The translations under genes were made by a program, and so were the position numbers. From positions 1-58,957 of the forward strand of contig SLJM01000321.1 of assembly GCA_007135085.1 (NCBI GenBank): a stretch of DNA of 58,957 bases, read 5' to 3'. Numbering within the stretch: the first letter of the stretch is position 1; the number at the start of each line of letters is the position of its first letter. The DNA comes from Myxococcales bacterium. GTDB taxonomy: Bacteria > Myxococcota_A > Bradymonadia > Bradymonadales > Bradymonadaceae. The notes below the pieces were generated by a model. That model did not search any database and was not told the origin of the DNA. It saw only the letters and a program-made list of their open reading frames with translations. This document shows, piece after piece, positions 4,176 to 43,311 of the stretch.

Positions 4176-5738
4176 ATGAGCACTGACGAGCCGACTGATT
4201 CACCTGAGCCAACTGAGTCCACCGAGCCCGGCGAGCCGGCCGAGTACGACGTACCGGAGGGAGGGGGCGAAGAGGGGCGAAGTGACAAAAATGATAAACG
4301 TCAGCGACGCCTTTTATGGAGCTATGTGCTCGCCGTGGTGGTCACCGCCGTGGCCACGGTGGTGGTGGTCGCGCTGTTGACGAATATCTTCGAGCGCCGG
4401 CACGAAGCGCTCGTCCCCACCCAGCGGGTGGTCGACGTCGATGAGGACACCATCGAGCCTGCCATCTGGGGCCAGAATTTTCCGCGCCAATACGAGACCT
4501 ATGCCCGAACAGTGGATTACGAGCGGACCCGATATGGTGGAAGTGACGCCATTCCCGAGCAGAAGCTCGATAAGGATCCCTGGTTGAGGGTGATGTGGTC
4601 GGGATATGCCTTCTCATTGGATTATCGCGAGGCCAGGGGACACGCCTATATGCTTCTCGATCAGGAGGAGACGGAGCGTATCCTCCAGGTCGAGCAGCCC
4701 GGGGCCTGTCTGCATTGTCATGCCTCGGTGATGCCCGCCTATCGCTACGTGGGCGACGGTGACGTGATGGCCGGGTTTCGAGAGATCAACTCCATGGGCT
4801 ATACGGAGGCGCGAAACCTCACCGATGAGCACGGCGAATTGCTCATCGATCATCCCATCTCCTGCGTGGACTGCCATAACCCGGACACCATGGCCCTGCG
4901 GATTACGCGGCCAGCCTTCATCGAGGGCATCGCCGCTTATAAGGAGCATGTGGAGGGGATAGAGGATTACGACGTCAATCGGGATTCGACGCGACAGGAA
5001 AAGCGCACCTATGTCTGCGCTCAATGCCACGTGGAGTATTATTTTACGCCCGAGGACAATCAGCTCGTCTACCCCTGGACCCACGGACTGGATGTGGACG
5101 CTCAGGAGGCCTATTACGACGAGATCGGCTTCTCCGACTGGACCCATGGATATACGGGGGCGCCCATGCTCAAAGCTCAGCACCCCGAATTTGAGCTCTA
5201 CAGCCAGGGGCCTCACGCCCAGGCGGGCGTGGCCTGCGCCGATTGCCATATGCCTTACCAACGAGATGGGGCGCTCAAATATAGCAATCACCACGTACGC
5301 TCTCCGCTGCTCGACATCGCCTCCTCGTGCATGACCTGTCACGGCGGTACGGAGAGCCAGATGATGGAGCGGGTCAATACCATTCAGGACCGCACCCAGA
5401 ATCTCACGGACCGAGCCGCTGACGCCCTGGTGGACCTGATGGACGAGATCGTGGCCGCTCGAGAGAGCGGCGCCACCGACGAAGAGCTGGAAGAGGCGCT
5501 CCAATACCACCGCAAAGCCCAGTGGCGTCTGGACTGGATCTATTCGGAGAACTCTCACGGCATGCATGCCCCCCAGGAGTCGGCCCGCATCCTGGGTGAT
5601 TCCATCGACTATTCTCGCCGCGGCTTTGCGATTGCCCGCCAGTTGGCGCTGATCTCGCCGGAAGACATCGAGACTGAACCGCCGCCCCCCCGTGGCGTCA
5701 CGCCTGCCGAGGAGGCCCCGCCCGGGGTCTATGAGTGA
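4176..5738 (+). CDS. nrfA: Ammonia-forming cytochrome c nitrite reductase NrfA
   Basis: A 520-residue pentahaem catalytic subunit reducing nitrite to ammonium in the periplasm. Haem motifs are at 178 (CLHCH), 230 (CVDCH), 281 (CAQCH), 354 (CADCH) and 385 (CMTCH). CAQCHVEYYF and MLKAQHPEFE hold the conserved active-site Tyr and His, and SDWTHG is also typical. The first haem, which binds substrate, has CxxCH instead of the enterobacterial CxxCK, so this is a His-type NrfA. Also odd is a 45-residue Asp/Glu/Pro-rich segment before a single membrane helix (about 46-69); the family usually has a plain signal peptide. The protein is therefore probably an anchored periplasmic enzyme with a cytoplasmic tail. 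Partner NrfH is immediately upstream. Confidence 0.95.
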   Translation: MSTDEPTDSPEPTESTEPGEPAEYDVPEGGGEEGRSDKNDKRQRRLLWSYVLAVVVTAVATVVVVALLTNIFERRHEALVPTQRVVDVDEDTIEPAIWGQNFPRQYETYARTVDYERTRYGGSDAIPEQKLDKDPWLRVMWSGYAFSLDYREARGHAYMLLDQEETERILQVEQPGACLHCHASVMPAYRYVGDGDVMAGFREINSMGYTEARNLTDEHGELLIDHPISCVDCHNPDTMALRITRPAFIEGIAAYKEHVEGIEDYDVNRDSTRQEKRTYVCAQCHVEYYFTPEDNQLVYPWTHGLDVDAQEAYYDEIGFSDWTHGYTGAPMLKAQHPEFELYSQGPHAQAGVACADCHMPYQRDGALKYSNHHVRSPLLDIASSCMTCHGGTESQMMERVNTIQDRTQNLTDRAADALVDLMDEIVAARESGATDEELEEALQYHRKAQWRLDWIYSENSHGMHAPQESARILGDSIDYSRRGFAIARQLALISPEDIETEPPPPRGVTPAEEAPPGVYE

Positions 5739-33674: not shown

Positions 33675-34646
33675 ATGATAGGAGAAATCTCAGTATGGTG
33701 GAGTTGGGTGCTCCTCGTGGTGCTTGCGCTGCTATTTATGGGGTTGGTCGGCGCAGGGTGGTGGCTGTTGCGCAGGCGCAAACGCCACGAAATGCGCACC
33801 GAGGTGGCCCAGGAGCTACGCGATTCTGTGCGGGGCCTTGGGCTGGGCATGGTCTGGCAGGCCCCGTTATTTCAAGCCGATATCTTCGGGATCCGGGGCA
33901 AAGTCGACGAATTCGAGTTGCGCGCTGAGTTATGGGATAAATCAGGGCACGATTTTATCCGTGTCTCCGTCTATTTTCCCCGATCAATTCAGCAGGACCT
34001 GCGGATCAGACTGCGAAATAAAAAGGGGTTGAGCAATCTGTGGCGGATTCAGGAGGTGACCGTCGACGACGAGAGATTCGACGAGATGTTTCGGGTCTAT
34101 ACGCGGCCCAATCGCGTCGACAGCGTCACCGAGATACTAGCTTCGGCGCTGCGCCGCCGCCTGGTCTCGCTCGGTGAGCGGGTGGACGATCTCAAATTGG
34201 GAGACCGCTCCCTTTACGTGCTCATCGATGGCGGGGTCAGGCCATCGATGGTGGCTCCCCTTATCAGCGACTCCCTGGAGTTGGCCCGGATATATTACGA
34301 ACGCTCTCTGGATCAGATCCCCAGCGGCGGCGGGCGAAATACTCAATATGAGATGGCCGCCGAAGATGTGCTGGGACGAGAGAGCAGGGGTCCCTTGTCG
34401 ACCGTTGCGTTGCCGGCGGGCTCGCGGGGGCCTCTCGAAGAGGACGACAGAAGCGGGCACACCACGGAGAAGCTGGTGGAAACCGCCGAGACCTTGGCGA
34501 CTGACGAGCTCGATATTTATCGTCGCCTCGGATCGTCGGATACGTTCGGGCTCTCCGATTCGGAGGCCTCGGAAATTTCTGAGGCCTCAGAATCTGGCTC
34601 GTCATCTTCTACGGCGCCGTCCGACGAGGAATCGAAGCCGTCGTGA
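33675..34646 (+). CDS. Membrane protein of unknown function with Ser/Glu-rich tail
   Basis: 323 residues. One N-terminal membrane helix (about 9-32) followed by a basic stop-transfer (LLRRRKRHE), a soluble alpha/beta domain (about 50-225) with no motif I recognise, and a disordered acidic tail containing SEASEISEASES. Topology: short periplasmic start, cytoplasmic bulk. Its last 130 bp overlap the 3' end of the convergent GrpE-like gene. Both proteins have one N-terminal helix and a cytoplasmic domain, so a joint role at the inner membrane is possible. Confidence 0.8.
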   Translation: MIGEISVWWSWVLLVVLALLFMGLVGAGWWLLRRRKRHEMRTEVAQELRDSVRGLGLGMVWQAPLFQADIFGIRGKVDEFELRAELWDKSGHDFIRVSVYFPRSIQQDLRIRLRNKKGLSNLWRIQEVTVDDERFDEMFRVYTRPNRVDSVTEILASALRRRLVSLGERVDDLKLGDRSLYVLIDGGVRPSMVAPLISDSLELARIYYERSLDQIPSGGGRNTQYEMAAEDVLGRESRGPLSTVALPAGSRGPLEEDDRSGHTTEKLVETAETLATDELDIYRRLGSSDTFGLSDSEASEISEASESGSSSSTAPSDEESKPS

Positions 34647-35170
34647 TCGACAGCCACCTCGACCATCGCCGATCGTAGAACTCGATCGCCCTGGCGATAT
34701 CCGGATCGGAATTGGCGAGTGATCGTGCCCGGTTCGAAGTCGGTGTGCTCAGCCCGTGCGATGGCCTCGTGAATCTCAGGATCGAAGGGCTGGCCGGGCT
34801 GCGCGGAGATGGACTCCACGCCATGGCGCTTTAGGACCTCATCGACGGCGCTTCGGGCCAACTGGAGTCCCTGCCCCAATTCTTCAATACCGGGGTCATC
34901 CTCCTTTTCATCGAGAAATGAGAGGGCTTCGTCCAGACTGTCCAGGGCGGGCAGGAGATCGCGAACCAGTGGGTGATGGGCGGTGGCCAACTCCCGATCG
35001 TGCTCTCGGCGTAGACGATCGAGGCGGCGCCGATGTTCCGATCCTAATTCGCGAACCTTTTCGTCACTGGCCTGGCGCAAACGCAGGACGTCGCGTCGGT
35101 GTTTTCGCCACACCATTGCGAGCGCGGCGGCGGCGACCAACCCCATGAGCGCGGCGATTATCCAGCCCAT
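34517..35170 (-). CDS. Membrane-anchored GrpE-like protein
   Basis: 217 residues from the ATG at 35170, which has GGAG 8 bases upstream; a longer form starting at 35230 has no such site. Residues 1-21 are a membrane helix (MGWIIAALMGLVAAAALAMV), then a basic coiled coil (about 22-65) and a GrpE head: VRDLLPALDSLDEALSFL, then FDPEIHEAIARAE, GTITRQFRSGYRQGDRVLRS and AMVEVAV, which align with the GrpE signature. The C-terminal 30 residues are acidic and Ser-rich. The canonical GrpE is at 40219, so this is a second nucleotide-exchange-factor-type protein fixed to the inner membrane, facing the cytoplasm. It could recruit DnaK to the membrane. Confidence 0.88.
   Translation of the reverse strand: MGWIIAALMGLVAAAALAMVWRKHRRDVLRLRQASDEKVRELGSEHRRRLDRLRREHDRELATAHHPLVRDLLPALDSLDEALSFLDEKEDDPGIEELGQGLQLARSAVDEVLKRHGVESISAQPGQPFDPEIHEAIARAEHTDFEPGTITRQFRSGYRQGDRVLRSAMVEVAVDHDGFDSSSDGAVEDDEPDSEASEISEASESESPNVSDDPRRR
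34557..34594. repeat. 38-bp near-perfect palindrome shared by two overlapping convergent genes
   Basis: Arms 34557-34575 and 34576-34594 match at 17 of 19 positions around an AAATTT centre, with AGGCCT in each arm. It lies inside both coding regions, and the translation on each strand contains SEASEISEASE. As RNA it would make a long hairpin with almost no loop on either transcript; no T-run follows. Confidence 0.9.
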
Positions 35171-35308
35171 CTGCGATGCTCCGACATGAGTTTCGACCTT
35201 CGAGCCTGATCCAATGACTTGCCCGGCCATCTTGCCCGCCGAGGCTACTGACGGTCAATCTTCGTGGATCGTCATGGCAAAAGATTCGGCTAATCTGGCC
35301 ACACCGAG

Positions 35309-35622: not shown

Positions 35623-35997
35623 ATGGAGCCTGCCCGAAAGGTGCTCATACTTGATGACAATATCATCGACGTCATGGAGGTGGAGGAACACCTCAAAAAT
35701 GGCGGCTACGATGTGGTTCATCTCGCATCGCCCAACGGGGCGTTGTCCAAGATAGAATATGAACGTCCCGAGGTGCTCCTGCTCGACATCGAGATGGGAC
35801 GCCTCAATACAGACGATCTGCTCGGAACTCTTCGCTCCGCTGCGGAGTATGAGGAGATGGTCATCGTGGCCTTCAGTGATATGGAGGCCGATGATCTCCA
35901 GCAATTCTGTATAGACAACGAGCTCAACGGCTATTTTTGCAAGTCCATGGACGTCGGTCAGATCGCCGAATTTTTGGATAATTTCTACGACTATTAG
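35623..35997 (+). CDS. Single-domain response regulator (CheY-like receiver)
   Basis: 124 residues, receiver only. The acidic pocket is Asp11-Asp12, the phospho-acceptor Asp55 (VLLLDIEM), the switch Ser85 (VAFSD) and the conserved Lys107 (YFCKSMD, where a Pro usually follows Lys but here it is Ser). No output domain, so it works by protein contact or as a phosphorelay intermediate. GGAGG precedes the ATG. The glycosyltransferase gene follows after 48 bp. Possible phosphodonors in the window are the kinases at 29147-31788, about 4 kb upstream. Confidence 0.92.
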   Translation: MEPARKVLILDDNIIDVMEVEEHLKNGGYDVVHLASPNGALSKIEYERPEVLLLDIEMGRLNTDDLLGTLRSAAEYEEMVIVAFSDMEADDLQQFCIDNELNGYFCKSMDVGQIAEFLDNFYDY

Positions 35998-36045
35998 AGC
36001 GTCGCCTGTGCGCCGCACTGACACCGAAACTGGGGAGACTTGAGG

Positions 36046-37755
36046 ATGGACGAAGAGGGAACGAAAAACTCGGGAAGCCAACAAAGCGAACAGGGGCGGA
36101 AGGTGTGGATTCTGGTCGACCATTCGTCGCGGGAGGCGGCGTTGCTCCCGGTGGCCAACCAGTTGGAGTCTCGTGGTCTGACCGTGGAATTGGTGACCAT
36201 CACGGAGGTGATCGGAAGCGTGGCCCGCGAGGCCATCGCCGGCGGCGCCGAACGTCTGCTGCGGGGCCTGCGGGTGGCCGCGCGAGGAAAAGGTGGAGAC
36301 GAAGATCTGGTGGGCGCTATTCGACGACGCCAGCCGGATGTGCTGGTCGTGACCGAAGCGCGCTATGTGCGGGCCATCGGCGTGATGGAGAATCTGACCG
36401 GCGTGGAGAGTCTCCAGGTGGGGCTGGTCTCCGATTTTCAGGTCGATCCGGCCTGGTTCAACGGCCAGCTTCATGCATTTATCGTCCCCGACGATTTGGC
36501 CCGGGCCCAGATCGTGGACCGCGGCTTCGACCAGGATAGAGTTCAGATCGCCGGTCCCGCCCTGCGGCCCAACTTCCACGACGAGGTAGACGGGCAAAAA
36601 GCCCGTAAGGAATTGGGCCTCGACGGCGACGAGACGGTCATCCTGGTGCGCGGCGACGGCTTCGATGCAGCTTCCCTGGAAAAACTGGTCTTTCAATGCA
36701 CCCTCTGCGAAGAGAAGGTGCGTTTTATTTTTCATTATGACGGTGACGGGGCCACGGCTTCCACCCTTCGTCGAGCGGCCGACCAATATGGCCTGCCGGC
36801 GGCGATGTTTGGCCGTGTCAAAGATCTGGAACGTTATTTCGCCGCCGTCGACGGAGTTCTCGCCGACCAGCGCGACGCCTACCTGCCCGAGTTATTGCAC
36901 AGCGGGGTGCCGACCTTGTTATTGGGCAGCGGCGAAGCCGACGGTAATGGGGCGGCCCTCGAGGGGCAGGAGTTGGTCGATTATCTGGACGACCTGGGTC
37001 AGTTGGGCACACGCCTCGATCGCTTTGCCTCCCCAGATCGCCGAGAGGAGTTGGCGGAAAAACTGGGGGAATGGGACGGCCTAAAGCGACACGAGGACCT
37101 CGCCGAAGCCCTGGCAAAAGCAGCGAAAAACGCTGAAAAATGGAGGCGACCGTCGCGCCAAAAGACGGCACCTGAAGAAGATGGCCAGGCCGAAGAAAAA
37201 GGAGAGGCCTCGGCACCGGCAGGTCCATTCGAGTCTATCGGGGCGCCGCCGTCGAAGAGCAGGGGGCCCTCGGCAGCGACGGAGAAGGGCGACGGCAAAG
37301 GGCCGAGCCAAGCGCCCGGCGAGCCCCGCCGCGATTATTCGACCCTGTCTCGTGCCGAGGCAAAAGAGCAATTGGCGGAGCTTATCCTCAAGGAAAGAGA
37401 CCTGGAGCGCCGTCTCAAAGAATTGGAGCGTCAGCAAGAGCGCTGGCGAGGCCGGCTGCAGCTTGCGCGGGAGTGGAACGAGGAAGACCTGGCCGAAGAG
37501 GCGGAGACTATCCTGCGCGGCTACGTAGCAGACGCTGACCCGCTGGAAGACCAGCTCGGCGATATCCGGCGCCAAAAAGAAAAGCTCAAGCAGGCGGCCC
37601 GGCGCGGCCGGGGGTCGGCAGGCGTTAAGGGAACGACCGACGGCGGCGGTGAAGAAGACCGAGGCAGCGGGATGGAGGAGCGCTTTCGAAAAATGGAGAT
37701 CGACAGCGATCTGGAAGGGCTCAAAGACCGAATCCGTCGCGAATTGGGTGAATGA
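36046..37755 (+). CDS. MGDG-synthase-like glycosyltransferase with long charged C-terminal extension
   Basis: 569 residues. Residues about 15-350 look like the MGDG-synthase/diacylglycerol glucosyltransferase group of GT-B enzymes. The N-terminal half has VSDFQVDPAWFNGQLHAFIV (given within its length), followed by DRVQIAGPALRPNFHD, as in family members where the lipid-facing and hinge segments lie. The nucleotide-sugar half is degenerate (VLADQRDAYLPELLHSGVP). Residues about 370-569 are low-complexity and coiled coil, not part of the enzyme family. The start is ATG 36046 with GGGGAG 8 bases before. The next gene overlaps by 4 bp (ATGA). Function as a lipid glycosyltransferase is inference; a scaffold role is possible. 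Confidence 0.72.
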   Translation: MDEEGTKNSGSQQSEQGRKVWILVDHSSREAALLPVANQLESRGLTVELVTITEVIGSVAREAIAGGAERLLRGLRVAARGKGGDEDLVGAIRRRQPDVLVVTEARYVRAIGVMENLTGVESLQVGLVSDFQVDPAWFNGQLHAFIVPDDLARAQIVDRGFDQDRVQIAGPALRPNFHDEVDGQKARKELGLDGDETVILVRGDGFDAASLEKLVFQCTLCEEKVRFIFHYDGDGATASTLRRAADQYGLPAAMFGRVKDLERYFAAVDGVLADQRDAYLPELLHSGVPTLLLGSGEADGNGAALEGQELVDYLDDLGQLGTRLDRFASPDRREELAEKLGEWDGLKRHEDLAEALAKAAKNAEKWRRPSRQKTAPEEDGQAEEKGEASAPAGPFESIGAPPSKSRGPSAATEKGDGKGPSQAPGEPRRDYSTLSRAEAKEQLAELILKERDLERRLKELERQQERWRGRLQLAREWNEEDLAEEAETILRGYVADADPLEDQLGDIRRQKEKLKQAARRGRGSAGVKGTTDGGGEEDRGSGMEERFRKMEIDSDLEGLKDRIRRELGE

Positions 37756-38879
37756 ATCAGGCCAGGCCCAACACTCGAGAAAAAGGGGACCGACTGCAGT
37801 TGGGGCTGTCCCTTCTTCTGGCGTTGTTGATCGGCGCTGCCTTTTTGTATCTGGCCACCCGTGCCATTCCCCTGGAAGCGGTGAGAGATTATCTGGGCCA
37901 GGCCGACTGGGGCCAGATTGCCCTGGCGGCGCTGGTATTCCTGCCCGTCTATGCCGTATGCCACGGGGCCAGGATTTTGCGCTGGTATTTTCTGGTGCGG
38001 CCCCTCGGTGAGGTGCGCCCGAAATTGGTCCACCAGGTCTGCGCCGTGGGCTCTATGGCCATCTTGTTGGTCCCCCTTCGCCTGGGGGAATTGGTGCGGC
38101 CATTCTTGTTGGCGCGCACCTCGAAAATATCCGCCGCCGGAGTGCTGGCCACGGTGGTGGTGGAACGGGTGGTGGACGGGCTGATCATTACGGGGCTGCT
38201 CTTTTTGGGGTTGTGGACCTATCAGGGCGGGGCGTCCATCGAGATGGCCCGCGGCGCCGGGGCCATTGCGGCGCTGATCTTTGTGCCCGCCCTGGTGATG
38301 GCCATCGTGGCCTATCGCAACCGCGAGCTCTCGCGGCGAATTACGATGGCCACCATTGGTCGCTTCCTTCCGTCGATCGCCGAGAAGGTGGCCTCTCTAC
38401 TCGAACAATTCTCTCTTGGTTTTGAGGCTATGGCCCGTCGCGGCGACCTGGTGCCTTTTCTCGTTGGCACCGCCGTATATTGGGCGACGAACGTCATCTC
38501 CATGTGGGTGTTGTTGCGCCTGGGGTTTGGCATTGATATCGGCCTCTGGGAGATGATGACCGTCATGGCCGTCCTCGTCGTGGGCATCATGGTCCCCACG
38601 GGACCGGCGATGGCCGGCAACTTCGAGTATTTCGTGGCCCACGGCATGGGGCTATTCGTGCCTCTGGATCAGGGTAGCATCGCCGGGCAGGTCGGGGTCT
38701 TCGCAGCGCTGCTTCACCTGTTGCAGGTCCTGGTCATCGTCACCCCCGGGGTGTGGATCATGGTGCGAAACCGGCAGCTACGAGTAAACCGCAAGACTCT
38801 GGCCGAATCCCAGTCCATGGCTGACCGGGCCGTTTCAGACGTCGATGGTGGTCTGTCTGGGCCCGATGACGACCAATGA
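37752..38879 (+). CDS. LPG-synthase-type integral membrane protein (UPF0104 family, possible lipid flippase)
   Basis: 375 residues with about eight membrane helices. HGARILRWYFLVRPLG and LRLGELVRPFLLARTSKISA followed by ATVVVERVVDGL are the hallmarks of the lysylphosphatidylglycerol-synthase transmembrane family. It lacks the soluble aminoacyl-transfer domain of MprF, so lipid flipping or transport is more likely than synthesis. ATGA overlap with the upstream glycosyltransferase suggests that the two act on the same lipid. Confidence 0.87.
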   Translation: MNQARPNTREKGDRLQLGLSLLLALLIGAAFLYLATRAIPLEAVRDYLGQADWGQIALAALVFLPVYAVCHGARILRWYFLVRPLGEVRPKLVHQVCAVGSMAILLVPLRLGELVRPFLLARTSKISAAGVLATVVVERVVDGLIITGLLFLGLWTYQGGASIEMARGAGAIAALIFVPALVMAIVAYRNRELSRRITMATIGRFLPSIAEKVASLLEQFSLGFEAMARRGDLVPFLVGTAVYWATNVISMWVLLRLGFGIDIGLWEMMTVMAVLVVGIMVPTGPAMAGNFEYFVAHGMGLFVPLDQGSIAGQVGVFAALLHLLQVLVIVTPGVWIMVRNRQLRVNRKTLAESQSMADRAVSDVDGGLSGPDDDQ

Positions 38880-40218: not shown

Positions 40219-41397
40219 ATGGCCTTGAGTGACAAAGAGAAGCGGGAAGTACCGGGCACCGAAAGAAATCATGACCCCCAGGTAGACGACCCCTCGGAAT
40301 CGTCAGCCGAAAAACCTGATCAACCTGCATCGGAAGAAGAAGAGCGCGAGCAAGAGGGCGGGGACAGCTCCCAGGAGGACGACGGGCCCTCCGAATCTGA
40401 GAGCGCACCAGAGCAATCGGAGCGATCTGAAGAAGGAGTGGAGGCCGATGAGGAGGCCTTTGAGGAGGCCGAGGAGGCCGAGGAGGCCGCTCCCACCGTT
40501 GAATCGGGGGTGCCGGTCTGGGAGCTCGACGAGGATATGGAGGCCCCCGAACTCGACGAGGATTCGGAAGAGGAGACCGAGAAGCCCTCCCAGGATAGCG
40601 GTCCGGTTTCCCGTGAGGAGAAGCTAAAGCGGCTGCAGCGCAAAAACCGAAAGAAAAACGAAGACAACGTGCCCCGTGCCGTGGTCGACGCCGTCAAAAA
40701 GCGCGTGGAGGAGTTAACCGAGACCGTGGCCGAGCGCGACGCCAGGCTCGCGGAAGCAGCCGAGCAACTCCAACAGGGACAGGCCGAAATCGAGGCGGTT
40801 GCAGAGGAGCGCGACGAGATTCAAAACCGCCTGCTCCGCACCGCTGCCGACCTGGAGAATTTCCGACGCCGTGCCGAGCGGGAGAAAGAAGAGCTCAAAC
40901 GCTACGGCATCGACAAGGTCGTACTCGAACTCATCCCGGCCGTCGACAATATGGAGCGGGCCCTGGAGCACGCGCAGGTCAAGGAAACGGAAGGTTCCAA
41001 TTCCTTTATCGACGGCGTGCGAATGGTCTATCGCCAGATCTTGACCGCTCTGGAAAAGCACGGCGTCACCGGCTTCGAATCGGTTGGCGAGCGCTTCGAT
41101 CCGGAGCGACACGAGGCGATTCAGCAGGTGGAGACCACCGAATACGATACGGGGGTCGTCGTCGAGCAATACCAGAAGGGGTATTTCCTTCACGATAGAT
41201 TACTTCGTCCGGCCATGGTCTCGGTTGCAAAACGAATTGAAGCGCCGCAAGATGAAGGGACGGAAGAGGAAGCCGACGAGCAGGAGCCGCAAGGTCAGTC
41301 CGTCGATCCAGAGGCCGACCACGCAGAGAGCCACGAGCTCGACGGCGAAAATAAAGAGGCCACCGGCGGTGATGATGAGGCGCCGCCGGCCAGTTGA
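40219..41397 (+). CDS. grpE: GrpE with a long acidic N-terminal extension
   Basis: 392 residues, about twice the usual length. Residues 1-140 are Glu/Asp/Ser-rich with an EEAEEAEEA run; residues about 150-345 are GrpE proper: a long coiled coil, LLRTAADLENFRRRAEREKE, LELIPAVDNMERALEHA, then FDPERHEAIQQVE and QKGYFLHDRLLRPAMVSVAK. A second acidic tail ends the protein. It is the nucleotide exchange factor of DnaK. The start is ambiguous: AGGAG (40214-40218) directly abuts the ATG at 40219, giving no spacing, while a TTG at 40225 is 6 bases away and may be the true start. dnaK follows after 48 bp. Confidence 0.94.
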   Translation: MALSDKEKREVPGTERNHDPQVDDPSESSAEKPDQPASEEEEREQEGGDSSQEDDGPSESESAPEQSERSEEGVEADEEAFEEAEEAEEAAPTVESGVPVWELDEDMEAPELDEDSEEETEKPSQDSGPVSREEKLKRLQRKNRKKNEDNVPRAVVDAVKKRVEELTETVAERDARLAEAAEQLQQGQAEIEAVAEERDEIQNRLLRTAADLENFRRRAEREKEELKRYGIDKVVLELIPAVDNMERALEHAQVKETEGSNSFIDGVRMVYRQILTALEKHGVTGFESVGERFDPERHEAIQQVETTEYDTGVVVEQYQKGYFLHDRLLRPAMVSVAKRIEAPQDEGTEEEADEQEPQGQSVDPEADHAESHELDGENKEATGGDDEAPPAS

Positions 41398-41445: not shown

Positions 41446-43311
41446 ATGGGACGCACGATCGGGATTGACCTGGGAACAACTAATAGCTGTGTATGCTGCG
41501 TTATCGACGACGAGCACGTCGTCATCCCCAACGCCGAGGGAAGTCGCACCACGCCGTCAGTGGTGGGATTTACCGAGGATGGGCAGCAATTGGTCGGACA
41601 GGTCGCCAAGCGACAGGCTCAGACGAACTCGGAGAATACGATCTATGCCGTCAAGCGGTTGATCGGCCGGCGTTTTGACGCCCCGGACGTCGCTCAGGCG
41701 AGGCGCTCCTCTCCTTTCGATATCGTCGAGGGGCCAAACGGCGACGCCTGGGTCAATGTGCGCGGCAAGCAGATGTCTCCTGCCGAGGTGTCGGCGCTGA
41801 TTCTCAAAGAGATGCGAAAAATCGCCGAGGATCATCTGGGCGAAGAGATCGAAGACGCCGTGGTCACCGTGCCGGCCTATTTCAATGACGCTCAACGTCA
41901 GGCCACCAAGGACGCGGGACGCATCGCCGGTCTCAACGTATCGCGGATCGTCAACGAGCCCACGGCGGCCGCACTGGCCTACGGGCTGGCCAATGTGAGT
42001 GCAGGCCCCATTAAGGTCGCCGTCTATGACCTTGGCGGCGGCACCTTCGATATTTCGATTTTGGAGTTGATGGACGGTGTTTTCAGCGTCCTCTCAACCT
42101 CGGGTGACACCTTTTTGGGCGGTGAGGATTTCGACCACGCCATCATCGACTGGATCGCCGATCGATTCGAAGAGGCCCACGGTGTGGACCTCACGGAGAT
42201 TCCCATGGCCCTGCAGCGCCTCAAAGAAGAGGCAGAGCAGGCCAAATGCGAACTGTCGAGCACCGATTCGGTGGAGATCAACCTGCCCTTTATTCATACC
42301 GGCGACGACGGCCCCCTCCACGTGGAGGAGACCTTGACCCGCGAGATACTCGAGGAGCTGGTGGATCATCTCATCGAGCGCTCCCTCGACCCCTGCCGCA
42401 CGGCTCTTCAAGACGCCGGATTGCGGCGCTCCGACGTCGACGAGATCCTTTTGGTCGGCGGTATGACGCGGATGCCCAAGGTTCGTGAACGAGTCGGTGA
42501 GTTCTTCGGCCAGGAGGTCGACACCTCGGTCAACCCCGACGAGGTGGTCGCCATGGGGGCCGCCATTCAGGGTGGAATCATCAAGGGAGAGCTGACGGAC
42601 GTGCTGCTATTGGACGTCACGCCGCTGACCCTTGGTGTGGAGACCGCCGGCGGGGTGTTCACTCCCCTGATTCATCGAAATACGACCGTGCCCTGTAGCT
42701 ATACGGAGATCTTCAGCACTGCTCGCGACAATCAGGAGATGGTGCGAGTCCATATCCTCCAGGGCGAGCGGGCGATGGCGGACGATAATAAGAGCCTGGC
42801 CCTCTTCGAATTGACGGGTATTCCCCCGGCGCCGCGGGGGGTTCCCAAGATCGCCGTGACCTTCAAAATTGACGAAAATGGCATGGTCAACGTCGTGGCC
42901 CGCGACGAAGCCACCGGCCAGGAGCAGTCGGTCAATATCGTGGCCGACGGCGGGCTCAGCGATCAGGATGTGGAGCGGCTCATCGCCGAAGCTGAGCAAA
43001 AGCGCGAAGAAGATGCACGAGTTCGGGAGCTGATGGACCTTCGAAATCAAGCCGAGGGCTTGCTGTACTCCACGGAACGCAGCCTGGAGATGTACGGTCA
43101 GGAGCTGGGCCCCGAGGAGGTTCAAGAACTGTCGGAGGACATCGATACGGTCAAAGATTTGATCGAAGATGCCAACTTCGAGGAATTGGAGACCATCATC
43201 GCCACCTTGGAGGCCGGTGCCCACCGATTGGCGGAGGCGATGTACGCATCCATGGATGATCAACTGATGATGGATGACGACGAAGCCACGGCCCAGTCGC
43301 TGGAGGAATGA
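41446..43311 (+). CDS. dnaK: Molecular chaperone DnaK (Hsp70)
   Basis: 621 residues. The ATPase domain has [12 protein letters not shown] (5-16), [33 protein letters not shown] and [13 protein letters not shown]. The interdomain linker region ([20 protein letters not shown]) and the substrate domain follow. The lid is normal, ending in an acidic tail ([13 protein letters not shown]). It folds and refolds proteins with DnaJ and GrpE. It comes after grpE and is separated from dnaJ by a strong intrinsic terminator, so dnaJ expression depends on read-through or on a promoter I cannot see. Confidence 0.97.

Follow-up and report, generated by a model that had tools for sequence, protein, structure and literature searches.

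GrpE resets the chaperone DnaK, and GrpE-like exchange factors are described as soluble proteins in reviews (PMC12987570, PMC8215388). What, then, is the role of a GrpE with a predicted membrane helix, encoded 5 kb from an ordinary grpE gene in a bacterium of the family Bradymonadaceae (Myxococcota)? The window analysed here is a 58,957-nucleotide stretch of DNA, positions 1 to 58,957 of contig SLJM01000321.1. An earlier note on it had pointed out a GrpE head behind an N-terminal transmembrane helix and a normal grpE beside dnaK, and had named no characterised bacterial counterpart. Both observations hold, and no anchored bacterial GrpE was found in the literature searched, which included few subscription papers. 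The analysis of sequence, predicted structure and relatives confirms the protein, hereafter TM-GrpE, as a real membrane-tethered GrpE paralogue with a predicted anchor (Table 1).

Table 1 Features of TM-GrpE and its gene neighbourhood, in positions of the window
Feature	Position	Strand	Basis and remarks
TM-GrpE (membrane-anchored GrpE), 217 aa	34517..35170	-	ATG at 35170, stop 34519-34517; PF01025 8e-31; start and helix kept in 21/21 family genomes
N-terminal transmembrane helix, residues 2-21	35108..35167	-	Kyte-Doolittle 2.29; basic flank RKHRR behind; predicted N-out/C-in
Cytoplasmic helical stalk and first bundle helix, residues 22-88	34907..35107	-	AlphaFold2; alignment
Second helix of dimerisation bundle, residues 93-115	34826..34894	-	AlphaFold2; alignment; holds Gly101 (E. 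coli G122 position)
Beta-wing domain, residues 118-174	34649..34819	-	Pfam, AlphaFold2, alignment; FDPEIHEA; GYRQGDRVLRSAMVEV
Disordered Ser/Glu/Asp-rich tail, residues 175-217	34520..34648	-	pLDDT 52-58; dN/dS above that of the head; fast evolving
Canonical soluble GrpE of hrcA-grpE-dnaK-dnaJ cluster	40219..41397	+	PF01025 1.5e-52
DnaK, candidate partner	41446..43311	+	PF00012 1.2e-236; GrpE-signature hairpin kept
DUF3137-like protein, one N-terminal TM helix	33675..34646	+	Match below Pfam cut-off; convergent with TM-grpE; 130 bp overlap; neighbour in 15/21 family genomes
Single-domain response regulator, conserved neighbour	35623..35997	+	PF00072 2.5e-11
MGDG-synthase-like protein with coiled coil, then LPG-synthase-TM family protein	36040..38879	+	Conserved neighbours leading to hrcA

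The membership of TM-GrpE in the GrpE family is apparent from both sequence and predicted fold. Specifically, its Pfam match reaches 107.4 bits against a cut-off of 25.8, and it carries the bundle and beta-wing signature of the family (G122, FDPxxHEA, GY, R183, R186 and V192). TM-GrpE scores below the cut-offs of the NCBIfam GrpE equivalog models (best 92.6 bits versus 137, NF010738), which marks it as a divergent family member and not as a canonical GrpE equivalog. In the single-chain AlphaFold2 model (mean pLDDT 87.6), residues 2 to 88 form one continuous helix and residues 93-115 another, followed by a beta domain (118-174) and a disordered tail. All 11 significant Foldseek matches of this model in the PDB are GrpE or GrpEL1, confirming the GrpE fold with its long helix, bundle and C-terminal beta domain. 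A BAG domain was not matched in TM-GrpE by Pfam; the domain present is that of GrpE.

The hydrophobic segment (19 residues, 2-20, at 2.29 on the Kyte-Doolittle scale) has no positive charge ahead of it and is followed by the basic stretch RKHRR. Basic flanks mark the cytoplasmic side of a membrane helix according to the positive-inside rule, so that the head is placed in the cytoplasm and the orientation is predicted to be N-out/C-in; the C-terminal flank is likewise the more basic one in 24 of 27 TM-GrpE homologues. By predicted hydrophobicity, charge bias and conservation, TM-GrpE has the single anchor and cytosolic domain of a membrane-anchored exchange factor. It is highly improbable that the segment is cleaved off as an export signal, leaving the head to act outside the cytoplasm: an N-terminal hydrophobic stretch containing small residues would suit such a signal, but a positive n-region is missing, the charges behind the helix predict C-in, the periplasm is not expected to hold nucleotide or DnaK, and the AlphaFold model joins helix and stalk without a break. 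It was rejected on the charge distribution. A TTG codon at residue 31 could in principle serve as a start downstream of the helix and yield an ordinary soluble GrpE, an objection that the earlier note had raised against its own proposal. Such a start is very unlikely and hardly tenable on the comparative data, since it would leave unexplained a helix that is kept, with the start codon directly ahead of it, in 28/28 homologues. Conservation also rules out an upstream start: an extra in-frame ATG at 35230 would add just 20 residues ahead of the helix and is not conserved.

The search of related genomes that the earlier note had called for was productive. Each of the 21 genomes that were searched in the window's family encodes the anchored form, its start codon lying directly ahead of the helix (ATG in 17, GTG or TTG in 4), and a comparable N-terminal segment occurs in 0/18 canonical and 0/13 third-type GrpEs of the same genomes. 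Its occurrence is therefore not due to chance. The search covered Myxococcota and recovered the architecture in at least three further families, namely in three of five genomes from a second family of the same order, in one genome from another family within the class and in 3/3 genomes of a more distant Myxococcota family. The TM-GrpE set thus comprises 28 proteins, of which 21 come from the family, 4 from two related families and 3 from the fourth. The third-type GrpE is a soluble paralogue that in the source genome lies on another contig (L003 1130-1864, G000:C335), adjoining a histidine kinase and a response regulator; it was found in most of the family and has lost the R183 position (Thr in 11/13). 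In draft genome G006, a second TM-GrpE-like copy (L211, G006:C632, contig positions about 5242-5580) is truncated, is interrupted by in-frame stops and may be a duplicate in decay.

A maximum-likelihood tree of 104 GrpE cores unites the 21 family TM-GrpEs in a single clade (100/99), whose sister is the distant Myxococcota family (98/80). Two origins of the anchor, as suggested by the first tree, are not required: constraining all 28 anchored GrpEs to one clade gave a likelihood 4.9 higher and was not rejected (p-AU 0.615), so that a single origin is possible but not proven. The TM-GrpE clade has evolved about three times faster than canonical GrpE, compared over the same genome pairs. Between close relatives, dN/dS of the head is 0.09-0.16 where measurable, which indicates purifying selection on this part, and amounts to 0.34-0.64 in the helix and 0.27-0.67 in the tail. 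The helix is preserved in its hydrophobic character more than in its precise sequence.

The residues of TM-GrpE that would contact DnaK are changed in part. In M. tuberculosis GrpE, a stalk patch of R64, N71, R73, K74, R75 and R78 (Mut-1) is essential for DnaK binding, and the bundle and beta-wing patches matter less than this patch (PMC10803776). G122D abolishes the activity of E. coli GrpE (PMC10825016), and reports assign to the free N-terminal tail of GrpE a role in competing for substrate or releasing it (PMC8215388, PMC10803776). The residue numbers used here follow sequences of E. coli and M. tuberculosis GrpE that were checked against the published numbered residues and with an E. coli fragment. 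Across the 28 TM-GrpEs, the R75, G122, P151, G177, A188 and V190 positions are invariant, and R78 (26/28), R186 (26/28), H154 (25/28) and R183 (23/28, including 17 of the 21 in the family clade) are mostly kept, as are V192 and FDPxxHEA. In the protein of the window, Arg52 and Arg55 align with R75 and R78.

The other four of the six stalk-patch residues, R64, N71, R73 and K74, are replaced in TM-GrpEs according to the profile and L-INS-i alignments, although a phmmer alignment with a four-residue gap would pair the positions differently. The four-residue stalk deletion that phmmer places relative to E. coli GrpE is not needed, as no gap occurs in the profile and L-INS-i alignments, in which the invariant Arg52 falls on R75; it remains an uncertainty. 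All six patch residues are present, or conservatively substituted at most, in the canonical GrpEs that the same genomes encode. The disordered free N-terminal tail is absent from TM-GrpE, and the membrane helix stands in its place. Judged by these alignments, the DnaK contacts appear neither wholly lost nor fully retained, with an intact bundle and beta-wing side and a remodelled stalk contact. For the earlier idea of a tethered factor acting on DnaK, this means that the tethered paralogue stands and that activity on the adjacent DnaK cannot be assumed, given the replacement of four stalk-patch residues; the contact residues whose conservation the earlier note wished to see checked likewise divide into a kept and a replaced set.

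In most genera, TM-grpE belongs to a conserved block with genes for the DUF3137-like, response regulator, MGDG-synthase-like and LPG-synthase-TM proteins and hrcA-grpE-dnaK-dnaJ. Heat-shock control by HrcA was considered and not supported, as no CIRCE element with up to three mismatches occurs in the window. TM-grpE and the convergent DUF3137-like gene overlap at 34517-34646, within their Ser/Glu-rich tails. A 38-bp inverted repeat at 34557-34594 lies within both reading frames, encodes EASEISEASES on both strands and may be a bidirectional terminator. The DUF3137-like protein is laid out like TM-GrpE, with an N-terminal membrane helix, a basic flank, a cytoplasmic domain and an acidic Ser-rich tail, and could be its partner.

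The source genome offers at least four Hsp70s with a GrpE-signature hairpin: the DnaK of the window, a second canonical DnaK, a lidless Hsp70 of about 520 aa and one more. Lidless Hsp70s of about 515 aa with an intact hairpin are encoded at L134 5002-6546 and L139 6243-7796, next to a gene whose product shows a J-domain-like HPD motif, and among TPR-rich neighbours. DnaK is rarely lost in bacteria. In the genus g6 (genomes G006 and G007), canonical DnaK and soluble GrpE were not found in either draft, each 84-87% complete, and DnaJ and TM-GrpE are present in both. TM-grpE there lies directly downstream of a hybrid receiver-histidine kinase gene. The only GrpE-competent Hsp70 found in G007 is a lidless one whose GrpE-signature hairpin is intact and whose neighbour carries a J-domain HPD motif; a lidless Hsp70 was not found in the G006 draft. 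If the losses in g6 are real, the lidless Hsp70 would have to be the target of TM-GrpE in this genus, or else TM-GrpE would be without a GrpE-type partner. A specific co-occurrence of TM-GrpE with the lidless Hsp70 is unsupported, as lidless Hsp70s are present also in class members without TM-GrpE.

The available data favour a model in which TM-GrpE is a membrane-localised nucleotide exchange factor for Hsp70, altered in its stalk contact and devoid of a free N-terminal tail, a predicted function to which we assign a probability of about 0.62. In this model, the uncleaved N-terminal helix would hold TM-GrpE on the cytoplasmic face of the inner membrane, where it would dimerize through the stalk and four-helix bundle and stand on a stalk of about 65 residues. 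Its beta wing would then open the nucleotide-binding domain of one or more GrpE-competent Hsp70s, the adjacent DnaK or the lidless Hsp70, through an altered stalk contact. ADP, and the client with it, would be released beside the membrane, canonical GrpE would serve the cytoplasm, and TM-GrpE would dispense with the release function of the free tail. The fold, the anchor with its predicted C-in orientation, the conservation, the purifying selection and the retained bundle, beta-wing, R75 and R78 contacts argue for an exchange factor; the replacement of R64, N71, R73 and K74, the roughly threefold faster evolution and the missing tail argue against it. Release at the translocon, or for the membrane enzymes encoded nearby, is a guess with which the conserved gene neighbourhood is compatible.

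Two other readings draw on the same observations. A narrower version of the exchange-factor model assigns TM-GrpE to a specialised Hsp70 as its dedicated cochaperone, instead of to canonical DnaK; the foremost candidate is the lidless Hsp70 of about 520 aa beside a J-domain/TPR protein. This is a tentative proposal, possible without being probable. The g6 drafts, with TM-GrpE and no canonical DnaK or soluble GrpE found, would fit it, as would the intact hairpin and HPD-motif neighbour of the G007 lidless Hsp70; an altered stalk patch suits an altered partner, and the beta-wing face that contacts the lid would not be required. The incompleteness of these drafts, the lidless Hsp70 missing from G006, its unspecific co-occurrence across the class and the position of TM-grpE mostly beside the dnaK operon in other genera weigh against it. 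A former GrpE could also have become a membrane scaffold or sensor part, working with histidine kinases, the response regulator or the DUF3137-like protein, with weak or no Hsp70 binding and without exchange. The loss of R64 and N71/R73/K74, the rapid evolution, the g6 kinase gene directly upstream and the response regulator and kinases as conserved neighbours all point that way, but G122, R183, R186, V192 and the FDPxxHEA positions are under strong purifying selection, and a pure scaffold would have no need of them; we consider this role unlikely. More speculative, and rather doubtful, is the extension of the exchange-factor model to a separate membrane branch of the Hsp70 cycle in Myxococcota. 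At the inner membrane, an anchored GrpE belonging to this branch would discharge a specialised Hsp70, possibly one without a lid, and at least one genus would have retained the branch after losing the canonical DnaK-GrpE pair.

Comparison with known systems clarifies what sets TM-GrpE apart. Like the GrpEs of E. coli (1DKG), Geobacillus (4ANI) and M. tuberculosis (8GB3) and mitochondrial GrpEL1 (9BLS), it has a stalk, a four-helix bundle and a beta wing, and it shares with them the G122, FDPxxHEA, R183/R186/V192 and R75 positions. These proteins are soluble and carry a disordered N-terminal tail; in TM-GrpE, a membrane helix takes the place of the tail, and the N-x-R-R/K part of the stalk patch is missing. 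Yeast Snl1, a BAG protein that a 2014 paper regarded as the sole membrane-associated exchange factor known, resembles TM-GrpE in principle, with an N-terminal membrane anchor and an exchange-factor domain in the cytosol (predicted for TM-GrpE), but has an unrelated BAG fold and is a eukaryotic protein anchored in the ER/nuclear membrane (PMC3962485). E. coli DjlB and DjlC, tail-anchored partners of HscC, are likewise membrane-fixed cochaperones and bring Hsp70 to the membrane, but they are J-domain proteins that stimulate ATP hydrolysis and not exchange factors (PMC8215388). M. xanthus, of the same phylum, has two GrpEs, the second of which, GrpS (MXAN_6672), pairs with DnaK2/SglK, an Hsp70 that prefers membrane proteins; unlike TM-GrpE, GrpS is encoded together with dnaK2 and has no membrane anchor described (PMC11019930). 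By analogy, this membrane preference may hint at the role of TM-GrpE, as a lead rather than evidence.

The new element is a conserved second GrpE that is membrane-anchored, in bacteria of soil and water, in contrast to the bacterial GrpE known so far only as a soluble protein. According to a review of bacterial Hsp70s, exchange factors might offer the benefit of localised nucleotide exchange, an idea that the review deemed refuted for GrpE, as E. coli GrpE is evenly spread in the cell (PMC8215388). This idea would become testable in bacteria with a GrpE that is anchored and conserved throughout a whole family. Additionally, TM-GrpE presents a natural experiment on which parts of GrpE are needed, with the beta wing kept, the free N-terminal tail absent and much of the stalk patch missing. 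Taken together, these findings bear on the handling of membrane proteins in bacteria with many Hsp70s, for instance in the myxobacteria, where DnaK2 prefers membrane clients.
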